A DNA stretch of 64,000 nt, from assembly GCA_002118135.1 (NCBI GenBank), contig BDIU01000053.1, forward strand, positions 62,001 through 126,000, written 5' to 3'. This DNA is from Trebouxia sp. TZW2008 (Eukaryota; Chlorophyta; Trebouxiophyceae; Trebouxiales; Trebouxiaceae). Shown here one piece after another: positions 1 through 62,281 of the stretch (position 1 is the first letter of the stretch; every line of letters begins with the position of its first letter). A model generated the notes under the pieces. It was not told the DNA's origin. It did not search any database and worked only from the letters and a program-made list of their open reading frames with translations. Both the position numbers and the translations under genes were made by a program.

Positions 1-3000
1 TCCACTCCAGCCCGCATTGCCCGCCTCACTCAGCAAGCCCAGGCAAGTCACCTTCTGTGTCCTGATGCTGGTATACTGCATTTCGGAAAGCTGTGCAGCA
101 TTGTTTGTGGACACACAATGCTGCACAGCAGAGACAGTCAAACCTGTGGAATGGTGCCGCACAGCTGTCTATGAATTGGCATGTTGCAGATGCAGCAATT
201 AGATGCAGGACTGGTATAAAGATGCCGGTTCGACATAAGAGTGCTCATGACAAACAGCAGGTGTTGACAGCAAATATGAGTCAGCAATCAGCCATTAGCC
301 AACGTAGGTTGGAAGGAATCAGCTGCCTGTTGTTTCATCTCTTTCAGATTGATCATGACACGGGCTGAGAGCTGTGTCATGCTCGCAACAGCCACGATTG
401 TACACATTGCTGCATTGGCTGCTCACGTTCTCTCTTGTGTCTCACAGGCAAGCAGACCCAAGATGAAGCGTTGGATAGACAGCTTTATGGAGGAACATGC
501 TTCCTTAGCACTGTTGTTCTGCGTCCAATTTCCTGGCTGGTCACTGGTCTTCAAGAACATCATGCCCTGGCACCCATAGTATCAAACTCGAGCTTGACCA
601 TGCTTGCATTGAGCGTCACATCGCACCAACCCGTTGCAGTGCATTCTCACTTGCTTTTTCTGTGATCCTTAGGCCAGCAGACCCAAGATGAAGCGCTGGA
701 TAGACAGCTTTGGGGAGGGTTATGCTTCCTTAGCACTGTTGTTCTGCGTCCAATTTCCTGGCTTGTCACTGGTCTTCTAGAACATCATGTCCTGGCACCC
801 ATAACATCAAACTCGAGCTGAACCATGCTTGCATTGAGCGTCACATCGCACCAACCCATTGCAGTGCATTCTCACTTGCTTTTTCTGTGATCTTTAGGCC
901 AGCAGACCCAAGATGAAGCGCTGGATAGACAGCTTTGGGGAGGTTTACTCCAAGCTCATCATTGCAGCTACTTTGGGCATCATGGTAGTGCTGCCTATGC
1001 TTGGGGTCCCCATGCTGGGCACTGCAACCCAAAGGGGGGCCTTCTACAGAGCCATGGGCTTCCTCACAGCTGCCTCACCCTGTGCGTTGGTGCTGGTCCC
1101 TCTGGCATATGTGTCAGCTATTGGAGCTGTCACTTCCAGGTCTGCTTCTCTGAGCGCTTCACCAGTTCCAGCTTGACTCTGCTTGTTGATTGTGTTCTGA
1201 CCAGTGCATGATGCTTGGCTCTCGACCCAAAGAGGCACCCTCTTTAGAGTTGTGGGCTTCCTCACAGCTGCCTCACCCTGTGCGTTGGTGCTGGTCCCTC
1301 TGGCATATGTGCTCAGCTATTGGAGCTGTCACTTTCAGGTCTGCTTCTGAGCACTGTGGCACTTTTGTATCTGCTTGCTGATTATGTTCTGAGCAGTGCA
1401 TGATGCTGGGCACTGCAACCCAAAGGGGCGCCTTCTACAGGGCCATGGGTTTCCTCACCGCTGCCTCACCCTGTGCATTGGTGCTGGTCCCTCAGGCATA
1501 TGTGTCAGCTAATGGAGCTGTCACCTCCAGGTCTGCCTGTAAGCTGTGACACTCAGCAACTTCAGCTCGCCTCTGTAGATCTAACTTGCTTCTTCTGTCT
1601 GACCAGTATACGATGCCTGGTGCTGTACCTCAGTTTGCTGAAGCTGCTGCGTCGGCGCATCCACCACTAAAGGCAGACAGGTCCTGAGACAACAGGCATC
1701 AGCAAAATGCAGGGCAGATGCGTTTGCCAAAATGTGATGCTGTGATCATGCAGAAGCAGTACCTGCAATCATGCAAAAGCACACAACCATGCCTACTATG
1801 AGTGAGCGCCTGACCCAAAACCCCTTGTTGTCTCACTTATAAGGTTTTCTGCAGGGGCGTATTGGTACAAGGCGGCAATCACAACCCTTTTTGTCTCGCT
1901 CAAAAGGTTCATCTGCAGGGGCATGTTAAACACAAGGAGGCATTCACAGCCCTATTTGTCTAATTCATAAGGTTTTCTGCAGGGGCGTATTGGTACAAGG
2001 CGGCAATCACAACCCTTTTTTGTCTCACTCAAAAGGTGTTCTGCAGGGGCATATTGATACAAGGGGGCAATGTGCTGGATGCCCTGGTGAGGTGCAGCAC
2101 AGTGGCCTTTGACAAGACTGGCACCCTCACAACAGGAGCACTATCCTGCACCTCCATGCTGCCACTGCACCAGCCCCACTCCAATGGTGCAGGGCTGATC
2201 AATAGGCCAGGTCAGTCCCTGTTGCTGGCGTGGTGTGCAGCCACTCCATCCCTGACAGGAATTCAGGGTCAACACTTTTGCATCATGCATTGAGCCATTG
2301 TCAAGAAGCTGTGTGCAGGCAAGCGTTTATAATGTTGCTACAACCTGACAGCATTGTATGCATGTGTAACATGCTCAGAATAGGCCCAGATCCTCAAAAC
2401 AATCTTTCAAGCTGTACAACTTGAGCTTTGTGCCATCAAACATGGCCTCAAACTTGTGATCTGACGGGCAGGGCCAATTTTCCTTGTGCTTGACGACACA
2501 GACTTCAAGTTGTACAGCTTTGAGTACTACCTGAGCAACCTGATTCTATTCTGCTCTGTCTGCCATCCACTTGAGGACAGTATGCAAGGCTCATGAGTGC
2601 TGACTGCCGCCTAGCCTGCATCACTCTACCTTGCCATCTAGCATGCCAAGCGCAGGCCATGCCATCTAACCCTTGGCGACCGTCAAGCTTGGCACATGTC
2701 GATGTGCTGCTGTTGGCAAAAGCTGCCGCTATGTGAATCATTCATCTCTCATGTTGCATGAGAATGCATGTGTCAAGGTTGGAGGAGCAAGGACAGTAGT
2801 ATGCAGAAGCAGGTGGAAAAGGTGTCAGCAGCACAACACTGCTTGCGGTTCACATCAAATGGTGACTTGAGGCTGCATGCAGCCAAGAACTTTTTGTGGT
2901 ATGTTGCGCTGTCAGCTGTGCTGCGTTTTCATTTTGCCCAGCGCTGTTGATGCGACAGCTGCTTGCGTGCATGTGTGCAGCAAGCATGCAGCACATCAAC

Positions 3001-5187
3001 CAAATTATTTTATTGGTTGGCCTCTAACACAGCTACCGACACAAGCAAAGCAACATGGTCCCTAAACTGCTTCCTCTCCTACACAGGCCAAGCAGGCAAG
3101 CAGGACTGGAGTAATGAAGAAGTTAAAGCCCTGGCAGAGGCTGCAGCTCTTTCCATCAGGAGCACTCATCCCGTCTCTCAGGCCCTCACTGCTTGCGCAA
3201 CGTCAATGGGCTCTCAGTTGCCTGATGTTGAGCTACAAGACTTCCGACAGCAGCCAGGTCTGCCTTGCCTCAATGATATGGTCACCTGCAGCAGTGTGAA
3301 ACCAGTGCTGATGTTCTGAGGTTTGCAATTGGACCCAGAATGTGTTTTGCTTTGGCGACGGTGGTCAGCATGCTGGAACCTGTCTATACAACAATGCAGG
3401 ATTGAACCTGAGCGCGAGGCGCTGTCATGCCAATTGCTTTCAAAGTCATGGCACATCAACAAAGTAATGCTGCTGTCGGTATACTGCTGGTCAACTTCTG
3501 TCCATATGCTCATCTTGCATATCAGGCATCTTACATTGTGCTGTGAGTTGCTTGGGCCAGGTGCTTGAGTGCAATTTTTGTCCTGTTTGAAAGTGCATGC
3601 TTAGCTTCTTTCATATTTATTATACAGCATGATGCAGCTTGTGCAGCATCGTGCGACCGGCGTCATGATTGCAGGTGCTGGAGTGGAAGGTACAGTGCAC
3701 ACATCTGGCAGAAAGCGGCAAGTACGCTTTGGCTCACAGTCTTTCGCTTCTGACATACTGTCTGAGAGGCAACAGCAGTCCTTGGCAGTCACGTGTGAAC
3801 AGCAAGGAGCCAGCAAAGTCGTCTCCATACTTGTGCAGAAGGACTCAGGCACTCACGTCTCGAATGCTGCTTCAAGCAATGGCAGCAATGGCATATCTAC
3901 ATCAGCATTGCACGCGTCACATGCAGCAGCAGTTGGTGGTGACCAGAGGCATCACCAGTCATCCAGTCTTGTTGTTTCACAAGCTGGCACCAGTTCACAC
4001 ACTGAGGAAGACAGTAATGTCTGGGTTTTTACCTTTGAGGACACAATGCATCAGGGCAGCGCATTAGCTGTCCAGGAGCTGCAAAAAGGATCATGGCATC
4101 GCAACAACAGCAGTCATAGGAAGCTGAGGTTGATGATGCTGACTGGTGACAATGAGGACAGCGCCCAGCGGGTTGCAAGGCAGCTGCACATTGCTGATGT
4201 CAAAGCAGGCCTTTCTCCTGAGCAAAAGCTACAGGTGACGCCCAACGTGACCTCACACAGTGTCCAACAGCCGCACGCTTTGCACTCGTGACAAATTGCT
4301 GTATGCCTGAGCTGCACTGCATGCACACGTCTGAGCATGTCATCTGTCATGCCTGCTGCATGTAAGAAGTGCAGACTGCATCAAACAGTAGCATCTTTTG
4401 CAAGTATGCTATGTTGCTGTATGACTGAGCTGCACTGTATGCACATTGCTGGGCTGCACTGCATGCACGTACCTGAGCATGTCATCTAACCGCCTGCTGC
4501 GTGTGAGACTTGCGGACCGCATCAAGCAGCGTCATGTTTTGCGGGCTTGTCAGATTGCTGTATGCCTGGGCTGTACTGCATGCATATGATTGAGCAACCT
4601 CAGCTGACCCACCTGACGCCTGTGGTTGTGGTTTGCACACAGCATCACACAATACTAAAGACTTTAGCTGTGACCTTGGGTAGATTGTGAGCACTACTGT
4701 GCTGTTACCAGCCTTTGTCTGATTGTGCTTTCATGCTTTGCAGGCTGTTGAAGAGGCACGGCAGAGCACTAGCAACGGCATTCCAGCTGGCCAGGGTGTT
4801 GTGATGGTTGGAGATGGCATCAATGATGCACCTGCTCTGGCAGCAGCGGATGTTGGCATTGCAATATCAGACAGCCCAAGTGCATCAGCCGCTGCTGCAG
4901 CAGATGTGATAGTCCTAAGCAAAGAAGGAGTGTCCTCAATACCTTTACTGCTGTCTCTTGCACACAGGACTCAGCATGTGCTGAAGCAGAATTTGATTCT
5001 TGCCATTGGTTCGATTGTGGTTCTGGCTTTGCCGGTCGTTCTGGGTTTCCTGCCCTTGTGGGCTGCTGTTTCCTTTCATGAAGGGTCAACATTGCTTGTT
5101 GCCCTGAATTCGCTTAGGCTGTTGCAGTGGAAGCAAACTGCTCGCCCTCCTGTGTCTGGTGCGGCCCCTGTTGTACCAGCTGCTTGA
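1..5187 (+). CDS. HMA1: HMA1-like P1B-type heavy-metal ATPase, 5' end outside window
   Basis: C-terminal ~540 residues of a P1B-type ATPase closest in my recognition to plant HMA1, a chloroplast-envelope metal (Zn/Cu/Co/Ca) pump. Exons read: <1-42, 898-1139, 2047-2210, 3087-3257, 3675-4234, 4744-5187; all junction phases agree. Seen in order: STPARIARLTQQAQ, the membrane motif SPCALVLVPLAY (SPC type instead of the CPC of Cu pumps), phosphorylation site DKTGTLTTG, the HP motif STHPVSQAL, TGDNEDSAQRVA, and the hinge GDGINDAPALAA, followed by two C-terminal membrane segments ending LPVVLGFLPLW and HEGSTLLVALNSLR. The first visible intron starts with GC (gcaagt at 43), so it would be GC-AG. The introns hold many degenerate copies of the neighbouring exons, listed separately. 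Substrate cannot be told from sequence. Family assignment is firm; plastid location is inferred from the family. Confidence 0.9.
445..897 (+). repeat. two decayed copies of the 5' half of HMA1 exon 2
   Basis: Copies begin after an AG at about 446 and 672, each starting like the working exon at 898 (residues ASRPKMKRWIDSF). Both diverge after GlyGlu and run into stops. The intron sequence between copies (for example the stretch ending ttgcattgagcgtcaca) is also repeated, so the unit of about 225 bp contains the 3' splice site plus exon start. Confidence 0.85.
1209..1541 (+). repeat. two downstream copies of the 3' half of HMA1 exon 2 (SPC-motif exon)
   Basis: The segment coding TAASPCALVLVPLAY plus its 5' splice site (ag|gtctgc) recurs at about 1259-1341 and 1401-1536, spacing about 195 bp. 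The first copy has a frameshift (gtgctcagc). The second copy is open from its MLGTATQRGAFYR segment to the donor and keeps SPCALVLVP, with Leu to Gln and Ile to Asn changes. These are donor-side copies lying downstream of the working exon. Confidence 0.85.
1844..2046 (+). repeat. 64-bp tandem array built on the acceptor of HMA1 exon 3
   Basis: The acceptor gcag occurs at 1851, 1915, 1979 and 2043, an exact period of 64 bp. Each of the first three is followed by a degenerate copy of the exon start (compare gggcatattgatacaagg at 2047) and about 35 bp of intron. Only the last copy continues into coding sequence. Confidence 0.9.
4290..4600 (+). repeat. degenerate tandem repeat in the last HMA1 intron
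   Basis: About two and a half units of 120-145 bp begin with attgctgtatgcctgagctg-like sequence (near 4293, 4412 and 4553) and share the segments gagcatgtcatct and cctgctgc. No coding relation to a flanking exon is evident, unlike the other arrays. Confidence 0.6.
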
Positions 5188-9500: not shown

Positions 9501-12500
9501 CAGAGCAGTTGCTGGGGAAGCCCTCCTGGCGTCCCTTGCACTCAGCTTGGCAGAGAGCAGTGCACAGGTCAGCATGGGCATCCCAGCAAGTTGTTCAAAA
9601 TGATTGGGCATACAGAGCACATAGACGGTTTTCTGAATGGACATGGATGACTTCACAGGGAATAAACGGGGTATAGGACTGTGACGTCAACACGGCTTTG
9701 GTGGCGCAGCAGGCATCATTTTCTGCTGCCAAACCTGTGACTTTAACATCATTGCGCTTTGTGAGCATTCTTCATCATCCAGCTTTGCTAAAGTGGCTAA
9801 GGCAAGAGTACAGGTCATGTCATGCCATAGGGTGCATCCATTGAAGCAGAGCTGCTCATCCGGCCAAACACTGCCAGAAAGCATGACAGGCAATGCTCAA
9901 CTATTGTCACAACCCATGAGCATGTTGCATTCAGTGAGCTTGCAAAGCGCAGCCTTGACTGCACTGTATGACAGAACTTGTATAGTAGACCCAAGCTGGA
10001 TGCCATCATGCCTGCACGCCTTGCACGTAGCGTTTGAGCAGCATGCATTGTTCTTTACCAAGTCAACCATGATGCAGGCACCATCACACCTGCATGCCCA
10101 CCACATGCTTGTGAGCAATCAGGCACTGTAGTCTGACCCGTCCACCCCCGATGCAGGGCAGTGCCAAAGCGTTCAAAGCGCCCAAACAGGAGACAGCCAC
10201 TGGAGCCAAGCCCAAAGCCAAGAAAGGCAAAGATGGGCCCTCTTTTGGGCTAGGCAAAGGCACAAGTCTCATCAGAAGCCTCATAGACAGCACAGCACCA
10301 CAATGGAGTAGACGATCTGCTGCTACAGACAGTCACCAAAGCAGTGATAGTGCTGTACCTAATGGCAGCATGAACGGCAGCTCTGGGGAAGCTGCGGGGC
10401 ATGTGCTGCAGCTGGCGCAGCAGCTGCAAGGCAGTGGGGAGGAAGCTGTGGGGCAGGGCAGTGTACCTGAGACGCTTGGTGAACCAGCAGGAGAATTGGC
10501 TTTGCTCACAGTCGTACACTTGAAGCAAGCTCTTCTGGTATGCTGTGACGCTTTTATGCGGTCATCTATCCCTAGACAATATGCCCTTACATTGTCCTTC
10601 CTGAAACGAGCCATTGCATCTAGCGTGCATTGCTTGCTTTCCGATTGCATTGTCCTGACTTCATACACGTCAGGACAATGCATGCTACAATGACCATCGC
10701 GTCGTTGAACATACAGACACTTTGGTCAACCAATATGCCTGTATGGCCTTCTACATTTGATTGTCTCCTATCAGTGGAGCAATGGCTAGACCCAGCAGGA
10801 AACAAGCTAGGTCCAGTGCTGCTAGTTATAGGCAGCCTCATAGAGTCAAATCAAGCCACAAATCCTTTGCTGCTCTGCAAATTAGCTGACGATTACTGCA
10901 GGCAATTGAGCAATGCCTAGACCCAGCAGGGAACAAACTAGACCTGTTTTGGCAGACATTCGCAGCCTCATAGAGTCCAATCAAGCCACTGGCAAGCCCA
11001 AAGCGGCCAAAGGCACTAGGGATTTAGGCCCAGAGTAAATGGCAATCAGAGAAGTGGCTTTCAACACCATCACAGCTGTCTTCAAGCGGCATGAGAGAAA
11101 TGGGTAAAACCAGTCTGAACACGAGCTTTCTTCCCCTGCAGGCTGTAGAGGAATGTCTAGACCCGGCGGGCAACAAGCTAGGTCCAGTGCTGGCAGACAT
11201 TCGCAGCCTGATAGAGTCCAATCAAGCCACTCGCAAGCCGAAAGCAGCTAAGGGCACCAGGGATTTGGGCCCAGAGCAGATGGCAATCAGAGAGGTCGCA
11301 TTCAACACCATCACAGCTGTCTTCAAGCGACATGGGGCAGTGTGCATAGACACTCCAGTGTTTGAGCTGAGGGAGACGCTGATGGGGAAGTATGGGGAGG
11401 ACACTAAGCTGATCTATGATCTGGCAGATCAGGGTGGCGAGATTTTGTCGCTCAGGTGGGGACAGGGGCTATTTGTCATTTGCTGCTCATGTGCTTTGCT
11501 TGTCACATATTTTAAGGGAAGCAGTCATGTTACAGCATGAATGGGCAGCTCAGGGTTTTCACGCTGTGTCGCCCAGGTGGGAGCAGAGATTTCTCTTATC
11601 GCCTGCTGCTTATGTGCTTTGCTTGTCACATGTGTTCAAGCTGCATTCCCTCATAGCACGAAGATCAAGATTGCAAAGACTTTGCTGCTCAGGTGGAAAA
11701 TTGCTTTGTCAATTGCTGCTCATATGCCTTCTCTGTCACCTGCTTATAGGCAGCAGTCTTGGGCTGCTACTGGCACAAGAGCTCCAATGGGCATGCTTTT
11801 TCCTTCTTTGTTTCTGCTTGGCTCATCTCTTTTTTTGTCAAGTCTAGGCTGCAATGTTTGCTGGCAGAGATGTCCAGGTTTGCTGGTGCAAGGACCTGGC
11901 CACTAGCTTGTCACATTTGCTGTCATTCTCATGCCTGTTGCTGCTTCGACAGCCCATGTAGTGCTGATTGCAGCCTTGCCTCATGTACTCAAGACACTAT
12001 GTTGTCAAGACATCATGAAATCAAGACATTGTGTAGTGAAAGACATCATGTCGTCAAGAAGTCACGCAGCTAAATGTCATATAGTCACTATCTCTTGCAG
12101 TTCACATTGTGCCATCCACAAGGTTGCAGTCCAAGAGACTGCCTGAGAAGGCATCGGGGATTTTCACTATCATCATCGATTATAGGCTTGCTAGTGGGAT
12201 GCCATGCTTTTGCTAGAAGCAAGCAGAAGCACTAAACTGCCTCCCAGACGATGCTTTCCAAAGCAATTTTGTACCTATGCAAATCCCCATTCAAATCTCA
12301 GCTCCACTTACATGGGGACATTGCTTGCAGATATGATTTGACAGTGCCCTTTGCCCGGTATGTGGCTCAGCATGCCATCACCAACATGAAGCGTTATCAT
12401 ATTGCCAAGGTGTACCGGCGGGACCAACCTCAGATGACGCGTGGCCGCTTCAGGGAGTTCTATCAGTGTGACCTGGACATTGCTGGCACCTACCCCGCCA

Positions 12501-19812: not shown

Positions 19813-20047
19813 CGCAAAGCTGATGGCCCAGCCAATGGCGCTAAATCTGGCAAGACTGGCAATGGTCAGTCAGAAAACAAGGCCAAGAAGGCGCCTTCTC
19901 GCAATGAAATGCAGTCGAAGTTGTGTTCAGCCAACCACTTCAGCTGCATTTCATTGCGAGAAGGCGCCTTCTTGGCCTTCTTTTCTGACTGACCATTGCC
20001 AGTCTTGCCAGATTTAGCGCCATTGGCTGGGCCACCAGCTTTGCGCT
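19813..20047. repeat. long inverted repeat at the 3' end of the gag remnant
   Basis: Left arm about 19813-19913 and right arm 19944-20047 are reverse complements over about 100 bp with two substitutions seen, separated by about 30 bp. The arms encode GPANGAKSGKTGNGQSE and APSRNEMQ, so both strands spell the same gag peptide. The gag frame on the minus strand reads through the right arm and spacer and then into the inverted arm, where it ends. Confidence 0.92.
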
Positions 20048-21076: not shown

Positions 21077-21108
<32 letters not shown>

Positions 21109-48600: not shown

Positions 48601-48611
48601 TGCACGGTCGC

Positions 48612-48627
48612 GTCGTATATATACACC
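48612..48627 (+). promoter_or_regulatory. TATA box of XDH
   Basis: cgtatatatacacc lies 15-28 bp before the XDH start codon at 48641. If used, the transcript start would fall at or very near the ATG, so the 5' leader would be extremely short or transcription starts elsewhere. Confidence 0.5.
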
Positions 48628-48640
48628 TCTGGACAAGATC

Positions 48641-51600
48641 ATGGAGTCTGAGGCCGCGCTAATATGTTATGTCAACGGCAAGCGCTATGAGTTGCCGACA
48701 GGCCGGGCCGAGGCCACGCTGTTGCAGTGGTTGCGAGGTAGCATATCGCTCTGTCGTTATGCAACATAGCGCTTCGAGCCTATTGAGGCGTGATCGCAAA
48801 TGACTACTCCGTCACAGTGATCGCATACCGACACAACCTAGACAACAAGCGTTGTTTTCGCAAAGGTTTTGGCTTCTTTTGCAGAAATCAACCTGACCGG
48901 GACTAAGCTTGGCTGCGCCGAGGGTGGATGCGGAGCCTGCACAGTCATGGTGTCCCACCAAGCAGACAGCAAGCTTGTTCATCGTTCTGTCAATGCATGC
49001 CTCTGTCCACTGTACGCTGTGGAAGGCATGCACGTTGTCACAGTTGAAGGTGGGTCACTGGGTTTCGTTGGTGATGTCTGCACCATGAACTTCTGCTCCT
49101 GTTGAACTGAATGTTGTCAAAGGTGTGGTCATCAAAGGCTGTATAGCCTGCACCAGATCAACAGAATCTGGCCCAGGGGTTGCATAGAGGATTATTCCCC
49201 TCATGCTGCTCACAGCCATCCTGTCCAATGCTGAATGGAAGGCATCTGTCTACATTTGTGGTGTACAATAGTGTCTCTTTAGAATGACACTAGATATAGG
49301 GGCATCCTTGTTGCAAGGACAAGGCAGTTGGAAACCAGTCACGCATCCTGACTGCAGTGGTATCTCTGATAAAGCACAATTTGGTATAAGGACAATAATG
49401 TTAGCCACGCAGCCAGTACATTGAGGAAAACCTGTGTGTGCAGGTCTTGGCAATCCAAGAAGTGGACTTCATTCAGTGCAAGCACGCCTAGCCAAAGCCC
49501 ATGGCTCTCAATGTGGCTTCTGCACGCCTGGCTTTGTGATGTCCATGTACTCATTGCTACGGTCAAAGTCTGAAGCTCCCACTGAAACAGAGATTGAAGA
49601 CAATCTGGCTGGCAACCTCTGGTGGGCATTGGCCTTGTGTTCTATGTGCCTTGTGTCACATGTGCCTGCAACATGCTTGCCATATGCCCGTAGTATGCAG
49701 CGCATGCATACCTGCAATATGCAATTCAACACATGATTGCATATGCCTATGCATGAATACAGCAGCAATACTAGAAGCACCGTTTGCCTTGCATCTGTGC
49801 AATACATCATTTGCCAAAGGACAACGCCATGCAATGCATGCTTCATGGCGTCATTAGTGGGTTGATGTAAACTGCTGCACCCTGCAGTCGGTGCACGGGA
49901 TATCGTCCGATTTTGGATGCTTTCAAGATCTTTGCCAAAGCAGATCCTGCAGCATACACAGAAGAGTCCATAGCAGCCAGCAAGGGTTTGCTCAATGGCA
50001 AGAAACCCGATGGCCATGCTGAAAACGGGCATTCACAGAATGGCAATCCACACAATGGGCACAATGGCCATAGTGGGAACCAATCTAATGGGCATGAGTC
50101 CAACTCCAACGGCAACACTGATCATACCAATAATGGGACTGGGTCCAATGGGCACAAGGAGAATGGCAGGACAAATGGACATGATGACAGCAGCAAAGGG
50201 AGCGTCACACAGCTCATAAAGGCTGCCAAGTCCACAAATGGCAAGGTAGGCACTCACAGACCGTTTTGCAAAGCTGCCCCTGCACACAGCATAGCTTTGC
50301 CGCTCATCATGACAAGTTCTCTGCAAAGGGCAGTAAACCATCATTCCATTATTCTCTTTGTTGCTCACAGCATTTGCAAATGTCACATGGCCAGTCATTG
50401 CTGAACAAGATGCCCATTCAGCCAATCTGTGTAACTCAAGCATTGCTGAGGTCAACAGGACAAGGGGACATTCCCGAAATTTGACGGAAAAGGACCTGAT
50501 GCAGAAGTGTCTGGAACATGAACTGAAACAAGCTTGGGGCAAACGTTGACAATCTTTGTGAGATCAATTCTAGACTGCTGGCTGTGGCCTTGCTGCATAG
50601 CATGTATGCCCCAGCACAGGGCAGCCATGTGACTGCTCTGTTATGGAGGTGATCGGTAGCAGCTAGGACAAGCATGGATCGACACCTTTCATTCACAAAG
50701 GAAGCTGTCAGCTGGCTGCATGCAATTCTTCGAGCACTTGTTGCTGTCTTACAGACCTAACATACTGCAGGTTTGTCCCAGCACAGGGCGGCCATGTGAC
50801 TGCAGTGACGGTCAGATGATTACCAGCAGTGAGGACAAGCAGGCACTGGCAGAGCTGAAGCCCCACAAACCCCCCCAGGAGCCCATCTTCCCCCCCGAGC
50901 TGCGTAAGCGAAAGGCACAGGAGCTCTATGTACCTGGGCCCCTTGCTGCTTGGCACAGGTGCGCAACACAGCCTTGCACTGCACAAAACATGGATAACTG
51001 CAGGAACAACACAGCTGGTGCAAACACTGCACGCCTGTCTGAACAACATATCAGCTGAAGGTTTTGAAACAGTAGCCACACCATTGTCCTTGCTCAACAG
51101 TACAGTAGTAAGTGAGCTCAATACACAGTGCAGTGGCTGAACAGCTTGCACTGACCAGACTGGCTTGACAGCTGCAAAATGGTGCAATAGCAGGACAGCT
51201 GCATGGCATTCTCATATGCTAGACAATCGCATTGCAATAGCCGCACAAACAGCTTGCAGTCCATAACTGTGTGGCTGCATGAGCAGCTGCATCAGCATTA
51301 TAGTAGCAGGACAGCCGCATGAATATAAGAATAGCCCGACAACCAGACAGGTAACCCAATTGTGATACCGCTGCACATCTATCAGTTGATCTATACGGCG
51401 GCAAGCTGATGCATGTGGGTGCAGGCCTTTGACTCTGGAAGGGCTGTTGAAGCTGAAGGCAGAGTATCCAGATGCGCGCCTGGTTGTGGGCAACACAGAG
51501 GTTGGCATTGAGATGAAGTTCAAGGACGCTCGCTACCCTGTGCTGGTAGCGGTCACCCATATCCCTGAACTCAACAGCATGCAGGTGCGTGTTGGCAAGC

Positions 51601-54292
51601 TGCATTGTGCATGTTTCAGAAGAAGTGATACACTCACAATCTGACATGAGCTGCATGGTCTTTGCATTTGCCTCATTGACAGTTGCATCTGCTGATACCA
51701 TGCATCTGCCACACGGTCTCAGCTGCTCAAGTACTCAGGCCCCTGACACTGCTGTAGTATAAGCAAATATTGCCTTGACAGTGTGCTCAGAAAACCACTG
51801 CATTCTAATGCAGGATTCTGAGGATGGTCTATGGGTTGGGTCCTCAGTCACACTTTCAGACCTCATGGACAAGATGCGATCAGTCATTGCCACTCGCCCT
51901 GCTCATCAGACCTCAGCATGCAAAGCGCTGCTTCATCAGCTCAAGTACTTTGCCGGCAACCAGATCCGCAACACAGCTTCTGTAGGGGGCAACATTGTGA
52001 CTGGCAGCCCTATTTCAGACACTTGCCCTCTGTACATGGCTTGTGGGGCAATCTTTGTGTTGAAAGCTCAAGGACAGCCTGAGCGTACAGTATTGGCAGA
52101 GAACTTCTTCTTGGGCTACAGGTCCACACCCTCTGTGATGTGTCTGTGCTGATTTCTGTAGCAGCTTGCCATTGTCTCAAAACTCCAGCATGAATAAAAT
52201 CTGCTCTGATGCAAGTAAAAGCAACATCTGAAGATTGTATGCTCATCCCATCTGGAGCTCTCAACGCGTCGCTGACTACCTGCGTCTGTCAAAGTGGAAG
52301 CACTTTGAAGCTGTGCCAAAAGCAAGATATTCTATGTGTATGTCTGAGCTTCATAATGCACAGCTTGCACAAGTGCATGTGCATTGACTCACATCTTGCC
52401 ACATGCGCCCGAAAGATTAATGATTGCAACGAGGCCGTGTCTGCATGTGCGCGCATTGTTGCAAACACATATTGTGGTCCTGATCTGCAGGCGTGTGGAC
52501 CTACAGCCAACTGAGATTCTCACCAAGGTGTTTCTGCCCTACACACAGAAGCTGGAATATGTGCAGGAGTTCAAGCAAGCTCACAGGAGGGACGATGACA
52601 TTGCTATTGCCAATGCTGGCATGCGCGTGCAGTTCAGGCAGACTGCAGAAGGTGAACTAGACACCAAAACCTGCTGCACTGCCACAACCAGCAATGTCAT
52701 CTGCATTGCCAATCTTTCGAATGCCATTGCACAGCTTGTCAAGAAGTGGGCTTTCAGCCTGAAATAAACGTTGAAAGAAACTTGACAGAAGTTTGTTGGC
52801 TCTACTAGAAAGGAGCTGCCATTCTCTTGTTTAAGACCTTGCTAGGTCTGTAAAGTTTGCCAGACTCAAGCCGCGACACTTCCCACACCCATGCGCAAGT
52901 AAACAACCTGATGATGCATGGGGAACTTGTTTCTGCAGGCAATGTTGAGGTAGCAAAGGCTTGCACAAGCTACAGAAGGGTGGCGGCTAATTGCATTATG
53001 CAGGATCAAGTGAATGCTTTGATGCAGCAGCAGCATGGTACTGCAGCAAATTGATGGATTGATGGAGCAGCCTGATGCTGCAGCCACTATGTAGGTGGCA
53101 ATGAGGCGCATCAGCTATAGAGGTTGGTGTGCAGACCAACTTACCTGCCAAGTCAGTGAAGTGTTACATCAGCTTTGTTTTGCAGGCACTGTTGAGGTGG
53201 CAAAGGCGCGCATTAGCTATGGAGGTGTTGCAGCCAAGTGTATCATGGCAACCCACACCCAGGCTGCTTTAGAAGGCCAGCCCTGGGGTCAACAGACTCT
53301 GGATGCTGCTCTGCTGGCTGTTTCCAAGGACGTCAACATTGCCCCTGATGCACCAGGTGATCATGTTGACTGCTGCATGCTACTGACTGTTGCATGCTGC
53401 TGATTCCTGCATACTGCTTGAATCTGCAAACAAACAACGTCCATGGATGTCAACATCGCTCCCACTGTCCTGGACAATATCATGATGTCCAGAATGGTGC
53501 TGACTGCCGCATGGTACCGAATGCTGCTGCATGTCGCTGCCCTGCTGACTGTTGCTCAGGACGTCAACATTGCCCCTGTTGCACCAAGTGATCATGCTGA
53601 CGGCTGTCTTCTGCCTTATGTTGCCTCAAGCTTCGACAATTATGCTGCTGATTGCTGCATGCTGCTGATCACCACACATGAGTGTCACTTGTCAATGGCA
53701 CGTCTGCCAGTCATGCTCCTGAACCTCAAAGAGCCCTCTGAGCTGAAGGCTTACAGAAGCGAATTTGAGTCCCTCCAGCATGCGGATCACTGCAGGGGGT
53801 ATGGTGGAGTTCCGGCGCAGCTTGGCAGCATCCTTCCTCTTCCGCTTCTTCGTCCATGTGGGCAGTCAGCTGGAGGCTGATCTGCCAGGCTGGCAGAACC
53901 TGTTTCCGCCCACCTTCAAGTCTGCAGCTGTGCCCTTTGAGCGACCCCCAGTGCAGGGACTGCAATACTACTCCAAGGTACCTGGGGAGGCCATTGTGGG
54001 ACAGCCTACCCGCCACATGGCTGCAGACCTACAGGTGCTGAAATTCATTCTTGAGCACACTTCATGATCAGTTTATCTTAAATTTGTTCCTGCCCACCTA
54101 TAAGTCTGCAGCAGTGCCCTTTGAGCGGGCTCCTGTGCAGGGCCTGCAGTACTACTCCAAGGTGCCTGGGGAAGCAATTGTTGGTCAGCCAAAGCGTCAC
54201 ATGGCTGCAGACCTGCAGGCAATCAGAGTCATCATGATGTGCTACAACAATGTCCTGCTCTGTAAATCTATAATTCTGGTTCTGCCAGACTG

Positions 54293-54337
<45 letters not shown>

Positions 54338-57300
54338 ATAATGACCATGTGGAAGCATGCTGATACTGTTGCGGAAATTGTGCTTGCGTTGAAGGTGTGT
54401 GGGGAGGCTCAGTATGTGGACGATCTGAAGATGCACAACATGCTGCATGCAGCCCTGGTGGTCAGCAGCCGGCCTCATGCCAAGATCCTTAGTGTTGACG
54501 CCTCTGCTGCAACAAAGGTCAGTTGCTCTTGCCCACCATATAGCGATTTGCTTGCAAACATGCCCATTACAATGACCTTGGAAGCTTTCACTCGTGCAGC
54601 ATGGCATTGCATGGCATGTCTGATACATGCCACCTGGAGGTAGTAGTTTGTTCAAGATCAAATATACACTTGAATTTATAGCACAGCAGTGAGGCGCAGA
54701 AATGACAGCATACTGAGCAGCATAAGTTGTTGCACATCTAGGTGTAAAGCACAAGCAAGCAATGCATGAGGGTGGTACAGTTTGTGTTTCACGATGCCGC
54801 TTTCTGCTGCAGAAGCCAGGCGTGGCAGGCTATTTTGGCGCCAGTGACATTCCTGGCGGGAATGACATGGGCCCTGTCATGCATGATGAGGAATGCTTTG
54901 CCACAGAAGTGGTGACTTGCATCGGGCAGCCTATAGGAGTGATTGTGGCTGACACTGAGCAGCATGCACGCATGGCAGCCCGCTTGGTGAAGGTGGAGTA
55001 TGAGGATTTGCCTGCGCTCATCAGCATTGAGGACGCCATTGAAGCTCACAGCTTCTATGAGGTACATTTGCAATGCACACTGCTCAACATTGGCATTGTT
55101 GTGGCTGACACTGAGCAGCATGCACGCATGGCTGCTTGCCTGATAAAGATGGAATACAAGGACTTGCCTGCACTCATCAGCATTGGGGACGCCCTTGAAG
55201 CTGAGATGCCTTCTATGAGGTACTTCTGTGTTGGGCTCTTACACTTACATGACTAGAGCCAAGTCTCACACTACACACAACAGCGTTTGGTGCTGACCAT
55301 TCTGTGCTTGCTGCTGAACAGCTGATGAAACCATCAGCATTAGGGATACCATTGAAGCTGACAGCTACTAGAAGGAACTACTGCATTGTCTTTTACAGCT
55401 ATTGCATACATAAGCATTGAGCACAAAAAGGGTCACTTGCATTGGGCAGCCAATTGGTGTCGTTGTGCTTTATACTGAGCAGCATGCACGTCTGGCAGCT
55501 CGGTTGGCAAAGGTTCAATATGAGGGCCTGCCTGCCCTGATCAGCATCCTTGATGCTGTAGAGACTGACAGGTTTTATGAGGTACTTCTGTGATGCCTAC
55601 TGCTGAACAGCTGTTGCTGTATCCTGGTGGGCTATTGGTGGGATGAAGTTCTGATGTGTTGTTACTGAAGTTTGAGGTGCTGGCAGGAGCACTTCCACCT
55701 TGACGCTTTTGAGAGCATTGGCCCTCACAACTTGCTGCATGACCTCAGGTGTTTCCTTCTGATTTCATCTGTGATGCCTTTGCTTTGCGCTGGTCTGAAC
55801 ATTTACCAAATGCAGGGCTGGGGCAACAGGATTGACTGTGGAGATGTGGACAAGTGTTTTGAGGCAGGCACATGCGACCATGTGATTGAGGGCACTTGCA
55901 AGATGGGAGGGCAGGAGCACTTCTACCTAGAGCCCCATGGCAGCATTGTCATGCCTGCTGAGAATGATGAAGTCCGCATTATTGCCTCTACGCAGGTAAC
56001 ACTTGCATTCGCTAATCAACGTGCTGATCAACCAACTGCCTCACAAACTTCTACGTACGGTGTGCATCACGCGAGTCAACTATCTATTTGCCTGTCCTCC
56101 TTTCACTTCAGTTTCTTCTCACCATTCCTTTATAACTGCGCTTCTTCGGTGCAAATGCGGCATCACTGTTGCTGCTGCTGTTGTTGTTGTTGTTGTCACG
56201 AGTACATGCTGTCAGCTGTGCCTACAGTCGTGTGCCATGCAAGCACTACTTAAAATGATGACAAGCACAAGGGGGCCTTACCTTTGCTCACAGGCGCCAA
56301 CTAAGCATCAGCAGGCTCTTGGACACCCCAGTTACATTGTGCTCTCAATTGATTTTCCACCCTATCAAGTGCCCTTACATCAGTGTTTTACTGTTCTCAC
56401 AGGCGCCAACCAAGCATCAGCAGACGATTGCGCACATTCTGGGCATCCCTCAGCACAAAGTGGTATGCCATGTGAAGCGCATTGGGGGTGGTTTTGGAGG
56501 CAAGGAGTCACGCAGTGTGCCCTGGAATGCTGCTGCTGCTGTGCCAGCATACCTGCTGAGGAGGCCTGTGCGCTTGATACTAGACAGGGACGAGGACATG
56601 CACTACACAGGCCACAGACATGCCTTCCTGGGCAAATATAAGGTGGGTCATAGACTTGCATTGTGTATTGACGTTGGTATTGGGGATGGTTAGGATGGTA
56701 AAGTGCATTGTTGATGAGTTGTGGGGTCACTGTCATGTCACATGGTGTGACTGGAGCAGCTTAACCCCCATCAGTCCTATCAGGGGCATATCAACTAACA
56801 CTGAACATGCTGCTTGCAGGTTGCTTTCAACAAAGATGGCAAGGTCCAGGCTTTGGACTGCAAGCTGTACAATAATGGCGGCAATGGCTTGGACCTAAGC
56901 GCAGCCATCATGGACCGTGCCCTATTGCACATTGACGCAGCCTACAAGATCCCCAATGTGAGGGTGGTGGGCTATTGCTGCAAGACCAACATTGCCAGCA
57001 ATACTGCCTTCAGAGGCTTTGGTGGGCCACAGGCAAGCAGTCACCTTTCTGCATACAGCAATCTCTCAGCATACACTCCGTATCAAGACATTCTTGTTGT
57101 AATCACACACCTGGGGGCCAGCAAATGCATTTTGACTGTAGTAATACCTTCAATGTGAGGGAAACGTTTGTGTGAGCACAACTTACCTGAGAAACAAGGC
57201 AGCTGTTCACATCAAGAAACCTCATTGTATAAGACTGCACAGCAGGATCCACATCTTTGGTTGATGTCAGAAAGGCTATTTTGGCAGCTTTTTGGGTCAA

Positions 57301-60300
57301 TTCGGTTACAGTTCTGCTTGCCTGTGTATCAAGCTTGACAGATTTCCTTGCTTGCAAGCAGGGTGCAGATCTGCCTCATTGCAAGATGAAGTTGCGCAGC
57401 TGCGTTTGGAAACGTGGAAGCAGGTCATGTGGCTGATCGTTGCAGTCCAAACAAGCTTTAATGCTCATCCCATCATGTGATCCGCAACATACAGCTTTAA
57501 GAAGTGCAGCTGTCACTGTCTTTTGCGCAATGCTTGCTCAAAGATCCACTCACAGAATCATTGATGTAAGTGTTATGTCACAAGGCGCGCCGATGACAGA
57601 GATGTTGACGCACAGAGTGTGGGGCATCTGACAAGCCTCTGCACTTCATCCGCTCTTCAACTTGTATCATCGTCTCCACTGCTATTGATATTGCATGGCC
57701 CTGCTAGGTACGTACTCAAAGAGCCATTCACATCACCAGTGATGACATTGTTGTGCGGCAGGGCATGCCGGTGACTGAGGTACAGGACATTGCTGACTCA
57801 ATCTTAGTCACCAACTTGACTGTCATGTTGCAGGGCATGCTGGTGACAGAGATGTGGATGGACAGAGTGGCACGCATGACTGACAAGCCTCTGCACTCCA
57901 TCCGCCACCTTAACTTGTATAAGGAGAAGGAGAGGACTCACTTTGGTCAGATCCTACACGGCTCCCAGATACAGGTCTGGCTTGAAACTCTGGCCCCTGT
58001 GCTGCTGACCGAAGCCCTTTTGCCGCCAAATCTTGCATGGCTCAGTTTCTGCACAGCACTCCTGGCATTTTGCTGCTGACTGATGCGCACAGGCTGGTGC
58101 CACGATTCAGGGTCTTGCTCCCTTGCTGACTTTGCGATTTGCATATGCTGGTGGTAAGATTGCTCTGCTGTTTAGAATTGCTCTCGCAAACTGCTGCATG
58201 ACACAATGATCAAGCCAAATAAGCGCACAGGTACCGAACAAGCCCAACTTGCACAGGGATGCATGGCTGACTGATCGTTCCTGCAGTCATAGCCAGACCT
58301 TGCCCTTATTGGAAAATGATGTACAGATGTGGAGAACATGTTCATCACCGTCCACTTAATGACTCTGAGGCAAGCAGTTGCATGTGTTTACAGGCATGCT
58401 GGGATGGTGTCGTGGACCAAGCAGATTTTGCAGAGCGGCAGAAGGCTGCAGACGAGTTCAACAAGGCCAACAGGTGGCGCAAACGTGGCTTGGCTGTCAT
58501 ACCCACAAAGTTTGGCATCTCCTTCACCACTAAGTTCCTGAACCAGGGAGCCGCCTTGGTGCACATCTACACAGACGGGACTGTGCTGGTGACCCATGGT
58601 GGGGTTGAGATGGGTCAAGGCCTCCACACCAAAGTCGCTCAGGTCTGCTGCATGCTACCCACCCTGTTCAGCCTTAGTCAAGTGATTGATGAGGGTCTGC
58701 CTTTTCTTTCACCAGTCCCTCAAGCACAAAGCGGCTTTGGTACACAACTACACATATGGCACTGTGCTGGTGAAACGTGGGCGGGTTGAGTCGGGTCAGG
58801 CCCTTCACATAAAAGTTGCTCAGATGTGCTGCATGTTGCCCTTTCAGAAGTTGGTGGATTGGGCTGATAACTTTGCATCTCTTTCACCACCATCATTGAA
58901 GCAGGGGGCTGCCTTGGTGCACATCTGCATGGATGGCATCTCAACCCGACCATGTTTAAGGCCTTCACAGCAAAGTCGCTGGGGTCTCTTGCAGGCTAAG
59001 CTCTTCATATGTAGTGAACACAAGCAAATCTGTCCTCACTCAGGCAGCAGCAGCCGATCTGGGCATCCCCATAACCACTGTATACATCGCAGACAGCCAC
59101 AAAATCGTCAGTAGGCAGATGTTGACTGGCACATGTTGGTTTCAGGTGAAACCGCTGGACCGGGAACTGTCTTATGTAGCGCCAAGACATTGCTGAGACA
59201 GCTACAAAATTCACTTTACTGTTAAGCAGACTCTAACTGTCACTGATTGCTTCCAGTTGGCAGCGGCTGATCTGAGCATTGCCCTGTCCAGCTTCCACAT
59301 TACAGAGACAGACATCTGAGCATCTCTGTGCTGCTTGGCAGGTGGCAACAGCTGATCTGGGCATTCCTCTCTCTAATGTCTACATTGCAGAGACTGCCAC
59401 AGACAAGGTGCCCAACAGCTCCCCCACAGCAGCATCAGCCAGCAGCGACATAGTGTTGTGCAAACACACGCACAACCATAATTAGGATCATGTGCTGCAT
59501 TCCAGGTAGCAGCGGCTGATTTGGGCATTCCCCTGTCCAGCGTCTACATTGCAGAGACAGCTGCATCATCATCAGCAACAGTAGGCAGACTCTGACTGTC
59601 ACTTGTTGACTTTAGGTGGCAGCGGCTGATCTGGGCATTTGCCTGTCCAGCGTCATTGCAGAGACAGCCACAGACAACATGCCCATCATCAGTCAGGCCC
59701 TGATTGTTGCATGTTGCTTTCAGGTGGCAGCAGCTGATCTGGGTGTCCCCTTATCCAACCTCCACATTGCAGAGCCAGACATCTGAGCATCTGTGTGCCG
59801 CTTTGCAGGTGGCAGCAGCTGATCTGGGCATTCCACTATCCAGCGTCTACATTGCAGAGACAGCCACAGACAAGGTGCCTAACAGCTCTCCTACAGCAGC
59901 ATCAGCCAGCAGCGACATGTACGGCTCAGCAACTGCAGACGCCTGCGCCCAGTTGAATGCGCGGCTGAAGCCTTACAGGGAGCGGCGGCCTGACTCTAGC
60001 TTTACAGAGTTGATCAACGCTGCATACCTGGATAGAGTGGACCTGTCAGCACATGGCTTCTATGCTACGCCAGACATCACAGGTCAGCAGCTGTTCTGTT
60101 GAATGTTTCCTGAATCGATGCTGATTTGACGATGCTGCCTGTATTTTTGGGGTGCAGAAGCTCCATGGAGTGGACTTGTCAACGCATGGCTTTCATGCTA
60201 TGAAGGGGATTACATGTGGGCACCAGTATTGAATGTTGTCTCCTGAGCTGATGTTGGGGTTGGCAGGCTTATCAGAGGGAGCGTAGTAGGGCACGATATC

Positions 60301-62281
60301 TATGCTACCCCAGACATAAGCTTGTAACTTGCCGGTTTGAATCCTGAAATCCACCTCGCAGCAGGCTGCCCCATGTATGACGGAAAGCAGTTCAAGGGAA
60401 TTCATTGCCAAAGCACAGGCAAGCGACGCTTCGGGGATCAGATGCCGCTGAACTACTCCACATGCACATTGCCCTCCAAGCAGCACCTTCACTGTTCTGT
60501 CCCGCCCTGTGCTGGGGTTTGCTTGCACTGCCTCTGGCCTGTGCTTTGGCTTGCTTGTCTGCTGCCAGGCCTGGGGAATCAGATGCTGCTCAACTTCTTC
60601 ACATGCACGTTGCCTCCCATTCAATACATGCACGACTTTCTGCAGTGCTCAGGCTTGCTTGCACTGCCTCTGGCCTGTGCTAAGGCTTGCTTGTGCGATG
60701 AGTAGAGTCGCCTTTCCTTCACATCACCTGCAGAGTGCATCGCAAGCAAAATTCAAGCCACAGATTTACTGGTTCCCCTGTCGTGTGCTGAGGCTGGCTT
60801 TTAAGCCAAAGGCTCAAATGGCTTTGGCACTGAGACTTCGTTCAACAACTGTCCATGTACAGTGCCTTCCAAGGCAAATACGGCCCGTATATGCACTCTT
60901 TTCTGTGGACAGTTCTGAGCCTGAGTTGTGTGCTGACAGGCTTTGGAGACGAGATGCCCTTCAACTACTTCACGTATGGGGCGGCCTGCTCTGAAGTGGA
61001 GCTGGACTGCCTGACGGGTGACTTCCAGGCTCTGCGCACCCACATTGTCATGGATGTGGGCACCTCTGTCAACCCTGCCATAGACATTGGCCAGGTGGAA
61101 GGGGGTTTTGTACAGGTGCCTGCCCTGCTGTCTTCCTTCTTGCTTTCATTCGTGTTTCTAAACTGTTTCCTTCTGTATTGCTGATGTGTTTCAGTAGGGT
61201 ATGGCATTTATTGTGACGCATGCGTTTCTGATGTGTCTCATGCAAAGGGCGTCTGTCCTGGTTCTTTGACTTTACACGAAAGCTACTGCAAGGTTGTTTT
61301 CAGCATGATAGATGAACGGTCTGGTGGTCAGTAGCGTGACAGGGATGTGATGTGCAGGGCATGGGGTGGACATGCCTGGAGGAGTTGGTGTGGGGTGACA
61401 AGGAGCACAAGTGGGTCAAGCCTGGAGTGCTGCACACAAGGGGACCAGGTATGCTGCGGCCTGTCAACAAGGGCTGATCTGCTGATGCGTTAGTCAGCTG
61501 TTGAGTGGGATGTCACAAGCTGTATGACTTTACCTGTAGCTTGCCCAAAGTGATGCTATGACAATACACCAAAGCTAACAAATCAACGGCTGTCAATGCT
61601 GGTGTTGCTGATGTTTTGCGTCATGTTGCTACAGCTGCTCATGCTGTCTCCAGCAGCTGATACTGCCTGGACTCGCTGTCTCTGTGATGGTGCACATAGA
61701 CATGCAGGCCGCCATCAAATCATATTGCACGTCACGTCAGTGCCCATGAACTCAAGCAGCTGAGAAAATGTAGTTACGAGAGCAACAAGCCACCTTGCAT
61801 GCCGTGTTTATTGCAAGTTGCTTGTTGTGACTGGTGATGACCACCCTCTTCTGATTGGCGAGGCAAACTCTGCTTCGACAGTTGTCCAAATCAGGCATAA
61901 AGTCCCATCATCCTTGCTGCCAGTGCGGGCTTGCCACTTTTCCCTTCTCACAGAAGCAAATTGACTCCAGGCACCTACAAAATTCCCTCAGCAAACGACA
62001 TCCCCCTAGACTTCTGTGTAACACTCCTCAAGGACTCCCCCAACCATCGCCTACCCATGGTCTACTCCTCAAAGGCTGTGGGAGAGCCACCATTCTTCTT
62101 GGGGGCATCTGTCTTCTTTGCATTGAAAGAGGCGGTCTATGCAGCCAGAAAGGATGTTGGCATTGAGGGCTGGTTTCAGATGGACTCACCTGCCACACCT
62201 GAGAGGCTGCGCATGGCATGCGCTGATCACCTCACTGAGCCATTTGGTGGCGTCAATGTGCAAGTCAAGTTGAGCTGCTGA
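48641..62281 (+). CDS. XDH: xanthine dehydrogenase
   Basis: Molybdenum/2Fe-2S/FAD enzyme of purine breakdown: hypoxanthine to xanthine to urate. Exons: 48641-48737, 48885-49049, 49444-49621, 49888-50245, 50771-50958, 51425-51584, 51814-52121, 52491-52651, 53186-53356, 53796-54034, 54395-54517, 54813-55061, 55816-55995, 56403-56642, 56820-57032, 57834-57974, 58394-58642, 59809-60082, 60940-61115, 61358-61448, 61971-62281; every junction is in phase, 1423 residues. Iron-sulfur: [54 protein letters not shown]. Moco: [47 protein letters not shown], catalytic Glu in [13 protein letters not shown]. An Asn/Gly/His-rich insert separates the Fe-S and FAD domains. Intron 15 begins gcaagc (GC-AG). Exon copies crowd the introns. 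Confidence 0.97.
50570..50690 (+). repeat. upstream copy of XDH exon 5 start
   Basis: ccccagcacagggcagccat then gtgactgctctg... and agctaggacaagcatgg parallel the working exon at 50776-50840. Stops break it. Confidence 0.8.
52915..53125 (+). repeat. two upstream copies of XDH exon 9
   Basis: Copy one after ctgcag at 52940 reads [20 protein letters not shown] (working: [20 protein letters not shown]). Copy two is a fragment at about 53094-53124 (gtggcaatgaggcgcatcag). A further acceptor (tttgcag) opens the working exon at 53186. Confidence 0.88.
53436..53630 (+). repeat. two downstream copies of the 3' end of XDH exon 9
   Basis: The exon end [10 protein letters not shown] with its donor recurs at about 53443-53470 ([11 protein letters not shown]) and 53560-53600 ([12 protein letters not shown]), each followed by repeated intron text (tgctgactgc...catgctgctgat). 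Confidence 0.88.
54074..54218 (+). repeat. open copy of the 3' half of XDH exon 10 (exon 10b)
   Basis: Reads [40 protein letters not shown] and MAADLQ without stop, against the working 53899-54034. Of about 46 codons, I count about 16 silent differences and 4 amino-acid changes. It ends at the same position (ctgcag), followed by gcaatc where a GC donor is possible; an acceptor for its start is not evident. Confidence 0.85.
54295..54336 (+). repeat. (GCT)n trinucleotide repeat in XDH intron 10
   Basis: About a dozen uninterrupted gct units, bounded by ctgttgct and gctgttgata, 60 bp before the proposed AAG acceptor of exon 11 (54394). Confidence 0.95.
55090..55600 (+). repeat. three downstream copies of XDH exon 12
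   Basis: Copy one 55090-55225 ([20 protein letters not shown]), copy two 55318-55378 (short, with in-frame stop), copy three 55428-55590 ([41 protein letters not shown]|gtactt). All end at a copied donor followed by similar intron text (tacttctgtg). The working exon is 54813-55061. Confidence 0.9.
55672..55745 (+). repeat. upstream copy of part of XDH exon 13
   Basis: ggcaggagcacttccacctt then gacgcttttgagagcattg parallels the [17 protein letters not shown] coding segment at 55905-55955; broken frame. Confidence 0.75.
56165..56200 (+). repeat. imperfect (TTG/CTG)n repeat in XDH intron 13
   Basis: gttgctgctgctgttgttgttgttgttgt, trinucleotide repeat in the intron before exon 14. Confidence 0.9.
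56285..56325 (+). repeat. upstream copy of XDH exon 14 start
   Basis: tgctcacaggcgccaactaa then gcatcagcaggctcttgga matches the working acceptor and start at 56395-56425 (ttctcacaggcgccaaccaa). Confidence 0.88.
57570..57833 (+). repeat. two upstream copies of XDH exon 16
   Basis: Copy one 57575-57675 (gatgacagagatgttgacgc, aagcctctgcacttcatccg, acttgtatc) and copy two 57763-57790 (gcagggcatgccggtgactg) precede the working exon at 57834 ([20 protein letters not shown]). Confidence 0.88.
58690..58950 (+). repeat. two downstream copies of the 3' half of XDH exon 17
   Basis: Copy one 58705-58825 (aaagcggctttggtacacaa ... gttgctcag|atg) and copy two 58870-58990 (gcagggggctgccttggtgc ... aaagtcgctgg). 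The working segment is 58545-58642 ([20 protein letters not shown]). Confidence 0.88.
59041..59808 (+). repeat. six upstream copies of XDH exon 18
   Basis: The exon start [20 protein letters not shown] recurs after a copied AG acceptor at about 59043, 59255, 59341, 59505, 59615 and 59723; the working exon is at 59809. Five copies are short and broken. The copy at 59341 is open through [36 protein letters not shown] with mostly silent differences. Confidence 0.93.
60155..60325 (+). repeat. two downstream copies of the 3' end of XDH exon 18
   Basis: ggagtggacttgtcaacgca then tggctttcatgctatg (60163-60203) and atctatgctaccccagacat (60297-60317) parallel [15 protein letters not shown] at 60035-60080. 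Confidence 0.78.
60250..60380 (-). repeat. inverted, diverged copy of XDH exon 19
   Basis: The minus strand reads [20 protein letters not shown], against the working plus-strand [20 protein letters not shown] at 60976-61035. This is the only inverted copy noticed; identity is moderate. Confidence 0.5.
60405..60625 (+). repeat. two upstream copies of XDH exon 19 start
   Basis: cttcggggatcagatgccgc then tgaactactccacatgcac (60430-60470) and ctggggaatcagatgctgct then caacttcttcacatgcacg (60571-60612) parallel the working ctttggagacgagatgccct then tcaactacttcacg at 60941-60975. Confidence 0.85.

Follow-up and report, generated by a model that had tools for sequence, protein, structure and literature searches.

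The window, that is, the whole stretch of 64,000 nucleotides analysed here, is part of a 68.5-Mb, 527-contig assembly of Trebouxia sp. TZW2008 and harbours the genes HMA1, HARS, TSPO and XDH, in the introns of which partial copies of adjacent exons are located. The best documented of these genes is XDH: the translation of its spliced coding sequence coincides with the database protein P0001 at 1423 of 1423 residues, and its nearest named relatives among the matches listed are Trebouxia proteins with 79–84% identity (85–86% over the aligned length for three of them). Since the longest P0001 contig (5394 bases) is shorter than the 13.6-kb XDH gene, we infer that P0001 represents a transcript. 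The models of HMA1 and HARS were derived from a Trebouxia protein and from another database protein, at 63% and 69% identity, and by these alignments their exon boundaries should be considered less certain than those of XDH. The start of HMA1 falls before the window, and its exon 898–1139 was taken from the spliced alignment of the Trebouxia protein P0121. In the HARS model, one 12-nt exon was left out and the start of the first exon was shifted by hand after the splice-site probe search; the start given for exon 11142–11455 is the revised one.

Partial exon copies and their orientation

Comparison of the window with itself revealed 58 direct matches, 57 of which are less than 1 kb apart, versus 10 inverted ones, of which 5 are less than 1 kb apart; this agrees with the preliminary description, made from the sequence alone, where nearly all copies were considered direct repeats. 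Splice-site probes from HMA1, HARS and XDH (65 in total, 33 acceptor and 32 donor, not exceeding 105 nt) produced 38 matches, including 36 partial exon copies. All 24 acceptor-end copies are located upstream of the working exon and all 12 donor-end copies downstream of it, while the two remaining matches are off-pattern: one on the plus strand elsewhere in the window and one weak and inverted (E 1e-4). Three further copies, all upstream, were found in TSPO on the minus strand. The directional rule proposed previously (5' parts of exons upstream, 3' parts downstream) is thereby confirmed. The copies and repeat arrays are as follows (the method of detection is given in brackets).

446..947, plus strand: HMA1, 5' part of exon 898–1139 copied twice upstream, copy sites 448 and 673, spacing 225 (self-match, probes)
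1012..1553, plus strand: HMA1, 3' part of exon 898–1139 copied twice downstream, copy sites 1338 and 1530 (self-match, probes)
1816..2084, plus strand: HMA1, acceptor of exon 2047–2234 with the initial 25 nt of the exon copied twice upstream (self-match, probes)
4263..4596, plus strand: HMA1, three-copy duplication entirely within intron 5 (self-match)
10774..11334, plus strand: HARS, 5' part of exon 11142–11455 copied twice upstream (self-match, probes)
11423..11761, plus strand: HARS, repeats across the donor end of exon 11142–11455, missed by the donor probe and outside the 36 copies
12476..12859, plus strand: HARS, 3' end of exon 12331–12526 copied once downstream (self-match, probes)
14519..14985, plus strand: HARS, 5' part of exon 14847–15085 copied twice upstream (self-match, probes)
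15051..15334, plus strand: HARS, 3' end of exon 14847–15085 copied once downstream (self-match, probes)
15644..15904, plus strand: HARS, 5' part of exon 15827–15989 copied twice upstream (probes)
16237..16661, plus strand: HARS, 5' part of exon 16600–16800 copied three times upstream (probes)
34575..34837, minus strand: TSPO, 5' part of the exon with the match at 34513–34650 copied twice upstream (Pfam-segment probes)
35207..35417, minus strand: TSPO, 5' part of the exon with the match at 35075–35302 copied once upstream (Pfam-segment probes)
45227–45653 and 46747–47020: repeat arrays (self-match)
48641..62278, plus strand: XDH, 21 exons (spliced alignment of P0001)
50600..50841, plus strand: XDH, 5' part of exon 5 (50771–50958) copied once upstream (self-match, probes)
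52927..53247, plus strand: XDH, 5' part of exon 9 (53186–53356) copied twice upstream (probes)
53305..53624, plus strand: XDH, 3' part of exon 9 copied once downstream (probes)
53901..54219, plus strand: XDH, last 134 nt of exon 10 (53796–54034) copied once downstream (probes)
54902..55609, plus strand: XDH, 3' part of exon 12 (54813–55061) copied three times downstream (self-match, probes)
56287..56423, plus strand: XDH, 5' part of exon 14 (56403–56642) copied once upstream (self-match, probes)
57571..57920, plus strand: XDH, 5' part of exon 16 (57834–57974) copied once upstream (self-match, probes)
58512..58998, plus strand: XDH, 3' part of exon 17 (58394–58642) copied twice downstream (self-match, probes)
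59029..59918, plus strand: XDH, 5' part of exon 18 (59809–60082) copied six times upstream, spacings 85–213 (probes)
60032..60200, plus strand: XDH, 3' part of exon 18 copied once downstream, a weak copy (probes)
60433..60694, plus strand: XDH, duplication entirely within intron 18 (self-match)

The preliminary description had suggested about fifty copies in seven genes. The copies are real, but the number confirmed in the window is 39, distributed over four genes (HMA1, HARS, XDH and TSPO). Among 14 Pfam-matched segments used as probes, copies were found only for the two of TSPO and none for the other 12, including three segments each of SPDS and aminopeptidase P, two genes which had been reported to carry copies and in which the Pfam-matched segments were the only parts probed. 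The repeat arrays at 45227–45653 and 46747–47020 do exist, but their attribution to a bZIP gene was not confirmed.

Spacings of the copies in the three mapped genes range from 59 to 330 nt with a median of 156.5 (n = 36), so the “fixed periods” noted earlier hold only within single arrays, such as HMA1 (225 and 225) or exon f of the MnmG gene described below (about 170–180). Stops or frameshift gaps occur within the aligned part of 17 of the 36 copies and neither in 19, and the statement that most copies are broken was thus not borne out.

In the copies, the AG dinucleotide is present at 19 of 24 acceptors (including six of the six upstream copies of XDH exon 18) and GT at 9 of 12 donors, which is about what drift alone would give and therefore indicates no clear selection for or against decoy sites. 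P0001, a single transcript-like protein, omits 19 of the 19 XDH copies and uses the working sites only; each of these copies sits within one intron and is skipped whole in P0001, and unlike in intron gain by tandem duplication, no new intron lies between copies. Judging from this protein, the finished mRNA of XDH appears to leave the partial copies out. As supposed earlier, the copies go with longer introns: the mean length of XDH introns is 649 nt when copies are present (9 introns) versus 321 nt when they are not (11 introns), and recognised copies occupy about 30% of intron length in HMA1, HARS and XDH.

The XDH introns (48738–61970) themselves have weak donors, with G at +5 in 12 of 20 and one GC donor, and strong acceptors, 15 of 20 ending in TGCAG; splicing in this alga may rely more upon the acceptor than upon the donor.

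Repeat arrays outside the window and tandem duplication

The preliminary description considered the pattern to be genome-wide, and it does reach beyond the window. We analysed a sample of 20 stretches of 10 kb (200 kb) from 18 other contigs, which is not a random draw, as the stretches sit about 18–31 kb before matches to a donor-like pattern, an offset meant to avoid centring the sample on these matches. Direct arrays occur there at 3.6 per 10 kb versus 4.5 in the window, inverted ones at 0.4 versus 0.8, and the bases spanned by arrays make up 15% and 16%, respectively. The density is uneven, one of the 20 stretches being free of arrays. To our knowledge, this density of arrays is unusual among eukaryotes.

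The similarity decays rapidly with distance: of 1158 segments of 150 nt, a share of 0.160 exceeds a fixed score when compared with the neighbouring stretch, and this share drops to 0.041 at 500–940 nt and to 0.005–0.007 at 2–4 kb; with the neighbouring stretch in reverse complement it is 0.015. The copies are thus close together and directly oriented, which is what small tandem segmental duplication requires. A more sensitive scan raised the share of neighbouring pairs only modestly, and the suggestion of a large hidden pool of decayed duplications was rejected.

Several sampled arrays overlap open reading frames which we take to encode an SNF2-type helicase-like protein (L020, 4067–4503), a COG6-like protein (L015, 5591–5996), a diacylglycerol-kinase-like protein (L011, 8678–8894) and a DEAD-box helicase-like protein (L012, 75–1037). 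One further locus (L014), the open reading frames of which were recognised by eye, holds the tRNA-modification gene MnmG; it was chosen among the 20 sampled loci for arrays overlapping recognised reading frames and is therefore not a random gene, and its copy limits were set by hand. In MnmG, all six acceptor-end copies are upstream and all four donor-end copies downstream of the working exon, so the directional rule holds in an unlinked gene as well.

This rule can be derived from the geometry of duplication. If an intron end were doubled together with the start of the following exon, only the last copy would be joined to the remaining exon, and the partial copy would lie upstream; if an exon end were doubled together with the start of the next intron, only the first copy would be joined, and the partial copy would lie downstream. 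A tandem duplication with one end inside an exon necessarily gives the observed order, and the rule therefore points to tandem duplication rather than to any special system at splice sites. It also speaks against dispersed copying, since random pasting into flanking introns would break it in about half of the cases. Introner-like dispersal does not agree with the window, where one plus-strand match elsewhere stands against 36 local ones, and neither does an array of transposable elements, since 57 of the 58 direct pairs in the window lie within 1 kb. Chance was rejected by the zero matches obtained in one Markov shuffle of each of 27 pieces.

We suggest that the copies probably result from a past wave of short tandem segmental duplication which was tolerated when it ran across one exon edge. 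The genome would have passed through a phase of such duplications (59–330 bp by the spacings in the three mapped genes, median about 157), and those crossing one exon edge would be tolerated as splicing keeps using the complete exon, while those entirely inside exons were presumably purged. Most likely, the duplications arose when staggered breaks or paired nicks were filled in and their ends joined during repair, and some arrays may have grown later via unequal recombination.

Divergence of the copies and alternative origins

At residues where the sister Trebouxia agree with one another and the window departs from them, the XDH copies carry the residue of the window lineage in 9 of 10 comparisons (some of which share sites and are not independent), and among outgroup-polarised residues they carry the window state in three of three; the copies therefore seem to be younger than the split from the three sister Trebouxia compared. 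Nevertheless, among 155 sample and 48 window pairs, none is at least 95% identical as a whole over at least 60 columns, and only 4 and 2, respectively, reach at least 90%; copies are mostly 65–90% identical. A steady process starting from identical copies should yield many near-identical pairs, so that either the wave has ended, or young repeats were collapsed in the assembly, or the copies were non-identical at birth.

In 25 groups (19 from the window and 6 from MnmG, the counts of the latter entered by hand), the divergence between copy and working exon is 0.132/0.084/0.248 at first, second and third positions, and the ratio of the third position to the others is 2.30 (95% bootstrap interval over groups 1.84–2.86). 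In simulation with the base exchange rates of the sample repeats, a copy dead from birth whose partner exon is under constraint gives a ratio of 1.52, which argues that the copies were not simply dead from birth. CpG hypermutability was rejected as the cause of the excess, the ratio being 2.36 when CpG sites are counted and 2.23 once they are removed; mismatch rates are even over the four bases (0.167–0.172) in 46 sample pairs of non-coding appearance. An annotation-free test of mismatch phase gave a small and weak excess, with 0.465 versus 0.433 permuted in the window (27 arrays, 6 at p < 0.05) and 0.459 versus 0.426 in the sample (66 arrays, 7 at p < 0.05). Copy-specific differences summed over eleven multi-copy groups are 56/31/106, where the two-copy groups include changes of the working exon. 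The third-position excess and the missing near-identical pairs are unexplained by a wave of tandem duplication, and two readings of the excess are considered, birth from diverged alleles and temporary coding use of some copies.

According to the first of them, the copies were different at birth, being produced by unequal exchange between diverged haplotypes in a hyperdiverse sexual population or in hybrids, so that third codon positions and introns would already have diverged while amino acids were conserved. This would account jointly for the third-position excess, which is replicated in MnmG taken by itself (0.133/0.084/0.233), for intron flanks that are less alike than the first and second codon positions of the same copies, and for the absence of near-identical pairs; if true, the introns of this alga archive lost exon haplotypes. 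However, some HMA1 stretches are 97–98% alike, arrays with many copies would need many rounds of exchange, and in the six-copy XDH array the differences shared by the copies (1/2/6, versus 14/3/10 copy-specific ones) are most simply changes of the working exon, to which a part of the signal is therefore due. On balance, we consider an origin from diverged alleles rather unlikely.

The location of the copies at exon edges suggests another possibility, a process linked to splice sites (R-loops, co-transcriptional or spliceosome-linked breaks), for which exon edges would be hot spots and the units would often stop near the splice site. In a model of random placement, where units of the observed lengths were put into the three genes with introns shortened by the recognised copies, 46% of the intron-only, acceptor and donor classes together are expected to be intron-only under uniform placement, while 2 intron-only arrays were observed versus 19 splice-crossing groups (P 3.8e-4, uncorrected, three genes). 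MnmG similarly has 6 splice-crossing groups versus one further array without a matched exon. Nevertheless, copies containing exon sequence are easier to detect, since in an intron-only pair both sides drift while an exon part retains a constrained partner, so that intron-only pairs fade faster. In simulations, the recall of intron-only duplications was 0.97 at a divergence t of 0.10 per lineage, 0.89 at 0.15 and 0.49 at 0.19. For the splice-crossing copies, the intron flanks suggest t of about 0.20–0.25, assuming that these flanks were copied, and only a decay of this size would remove most of the intron-only deficit. Much of the deficit, though perhaps not all of it, can then be survivorship.

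The limits of the units are similarly ambivalent. Over 50 nt of intron flank, the identity is 59% versus 45% in control alignments (77% on the exon side), and 34 of 36 flanks lie above the control mean, but only 17 clearly run on into the intron, exceeding the random mean by 2 SD; the other 19 do not, and may be either decayed or never copied, the latter in keeping with units ending close to the splice site. The likeness next to the splice site may in part represent a splice signal common to both sequences. The proportion of exon in the repeat unit varies widely and is not fixed (mean 0.50, 10th–90th percentile 0.21–0.75), as random breakpoints would give. Since similarity enters the intron on average, the anchoring of copies at splice sites, as previously described, was not upheld as a general rule, being neither established nor fully excluded, and what looks like anchoring is probably in large part survivorship. 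A splice-site-linked process is accordingly improbable in our opinion.

Past coding use, in which the copies would have served as exon parts (alternative acceptors or donors, transient exons) before dying, seems marginally less probable still. The mean pattern of divergence is near to that of a simulated copy with omega 0.5, the 19 copies lacking stops and frameshifts are in keeping with such a use, and the XDH exon-10 copy (54085–54219), with 44 open aligned codons and differences of 1/3/17 by codon position, appears to be the best candidate for a past or present coding copy. Against this, none of the 36 copies in the three genes was matched as both the acceptor and the donor copy of the same exon in one intron, in contrast to tandem duplication of whole exons or mutually exclusive exons, where both splice sites are doubled. 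The frame of the spacings is not conserved (14 of 36 are multiples of three), the 31 frameshift gaps and 5 stops in total indicate that many copies are non-coding today, and none is included in P0001. Finally, an assembly artefact is highly improbable: the lack of near-identical pairs could mean that young repeats were collapsed, but copies of 65–90% identity are too different for false duplication, and the XDH exons exactly match an independent sequence.

Relation to known systems and further features of the window

A tandem duplication across an intron–exon boundary has been published for one potato gene (PMC4974935, where Rogers 1989 and Hellsten 2011 are cited). As far as the consulted part of that paper describes it, the potato case resembles ours in that the duplication crosses the boundary and the former exon piece of the upstream copy lies beside the copied acceptor; unlike ours, it gives rise to a new intron in the duplication, while the XDH copies stay within single introns. 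The alga also goes beyond it, with up to six partial copies per exon edge and further genes of the same kind. Internal gene duplications as reported by Gao and Lynch 2009 (cited in PMC4974935) are likewise common within genes and in some cases include introns, while here the copies are partial and mostly intronic, and arrays cover about 15% of the sampled sequence.

Exon-like intronic copies, including degenerate ones, are also known from Exonize (PMC12343006), where partial, inter-boundary and intronic events are stated to affect more genes than full-exon ones, and from a survey of tandem exon duplications (PMC9013439). These surveys, so far as their consulted parts tell, take annotated exons as their starting point (human, fly and worm; 20 Ensembl eukaryotes), and those parts contain no description of a directional pile-up of partial copies; no such pattern was found in titles and abstract openings of the open-licence literature either. 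With respect to mechanism, patch-mediated breaks in rice are reported to give short direct tandem duplications of 10–1000 bp (Vaughn and Bennetzen 2014, cited in PMC7407515), and CST/Pol alpha fill-in is described as a source of small tandem duplications (PMC8355091). The arrays of the alga, as compared with these partial accounts, are equally short, direct, tandem and scattered over the genome; they differ in that the copies are old and repeated, most of them apparently too old to show a break-repair junction signature such as microhomology or fill-in.

Boundary-crossing tandem duplication is therefore a known kind of event, and it is its scale and repetition that stand out: so far published as single cases of intron change, here it would account for about 30% of intron length in three genes. 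The alga may serve as a test bed for how splicing ignores copies of its own sites, for intron lengthening without transposons, and for whether exon edges break more than other DNA.

The window has several other features. No Rfam match reached the gathering threshold anywhere in it. A Helitron-like N-terminal domain lies at 6103–6346 in two frames (Pfam E 7.2e-15 and 6.9e-8), apparently as a transposon remnant, and adjoins an aromatic amino acid lyase domain at 6767–7210; the latter is situated upstream of HARS (6767–17394), and the Myrmecia bisecta protein P0141 bears both the lyase and the HARS domains. At 19809–20049, there is a near-perfect inverted repeat with arms of 116 nt (95% complementary, gap of 9 nt), the longest among the inverted pairs listed for the window and perhaps a small transposon. 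In the three mapped genes and the window, CpG is depleted to a similar degree in exons and introns (observed/expected 0.35 and 0.33), which resembles methylated DNA.
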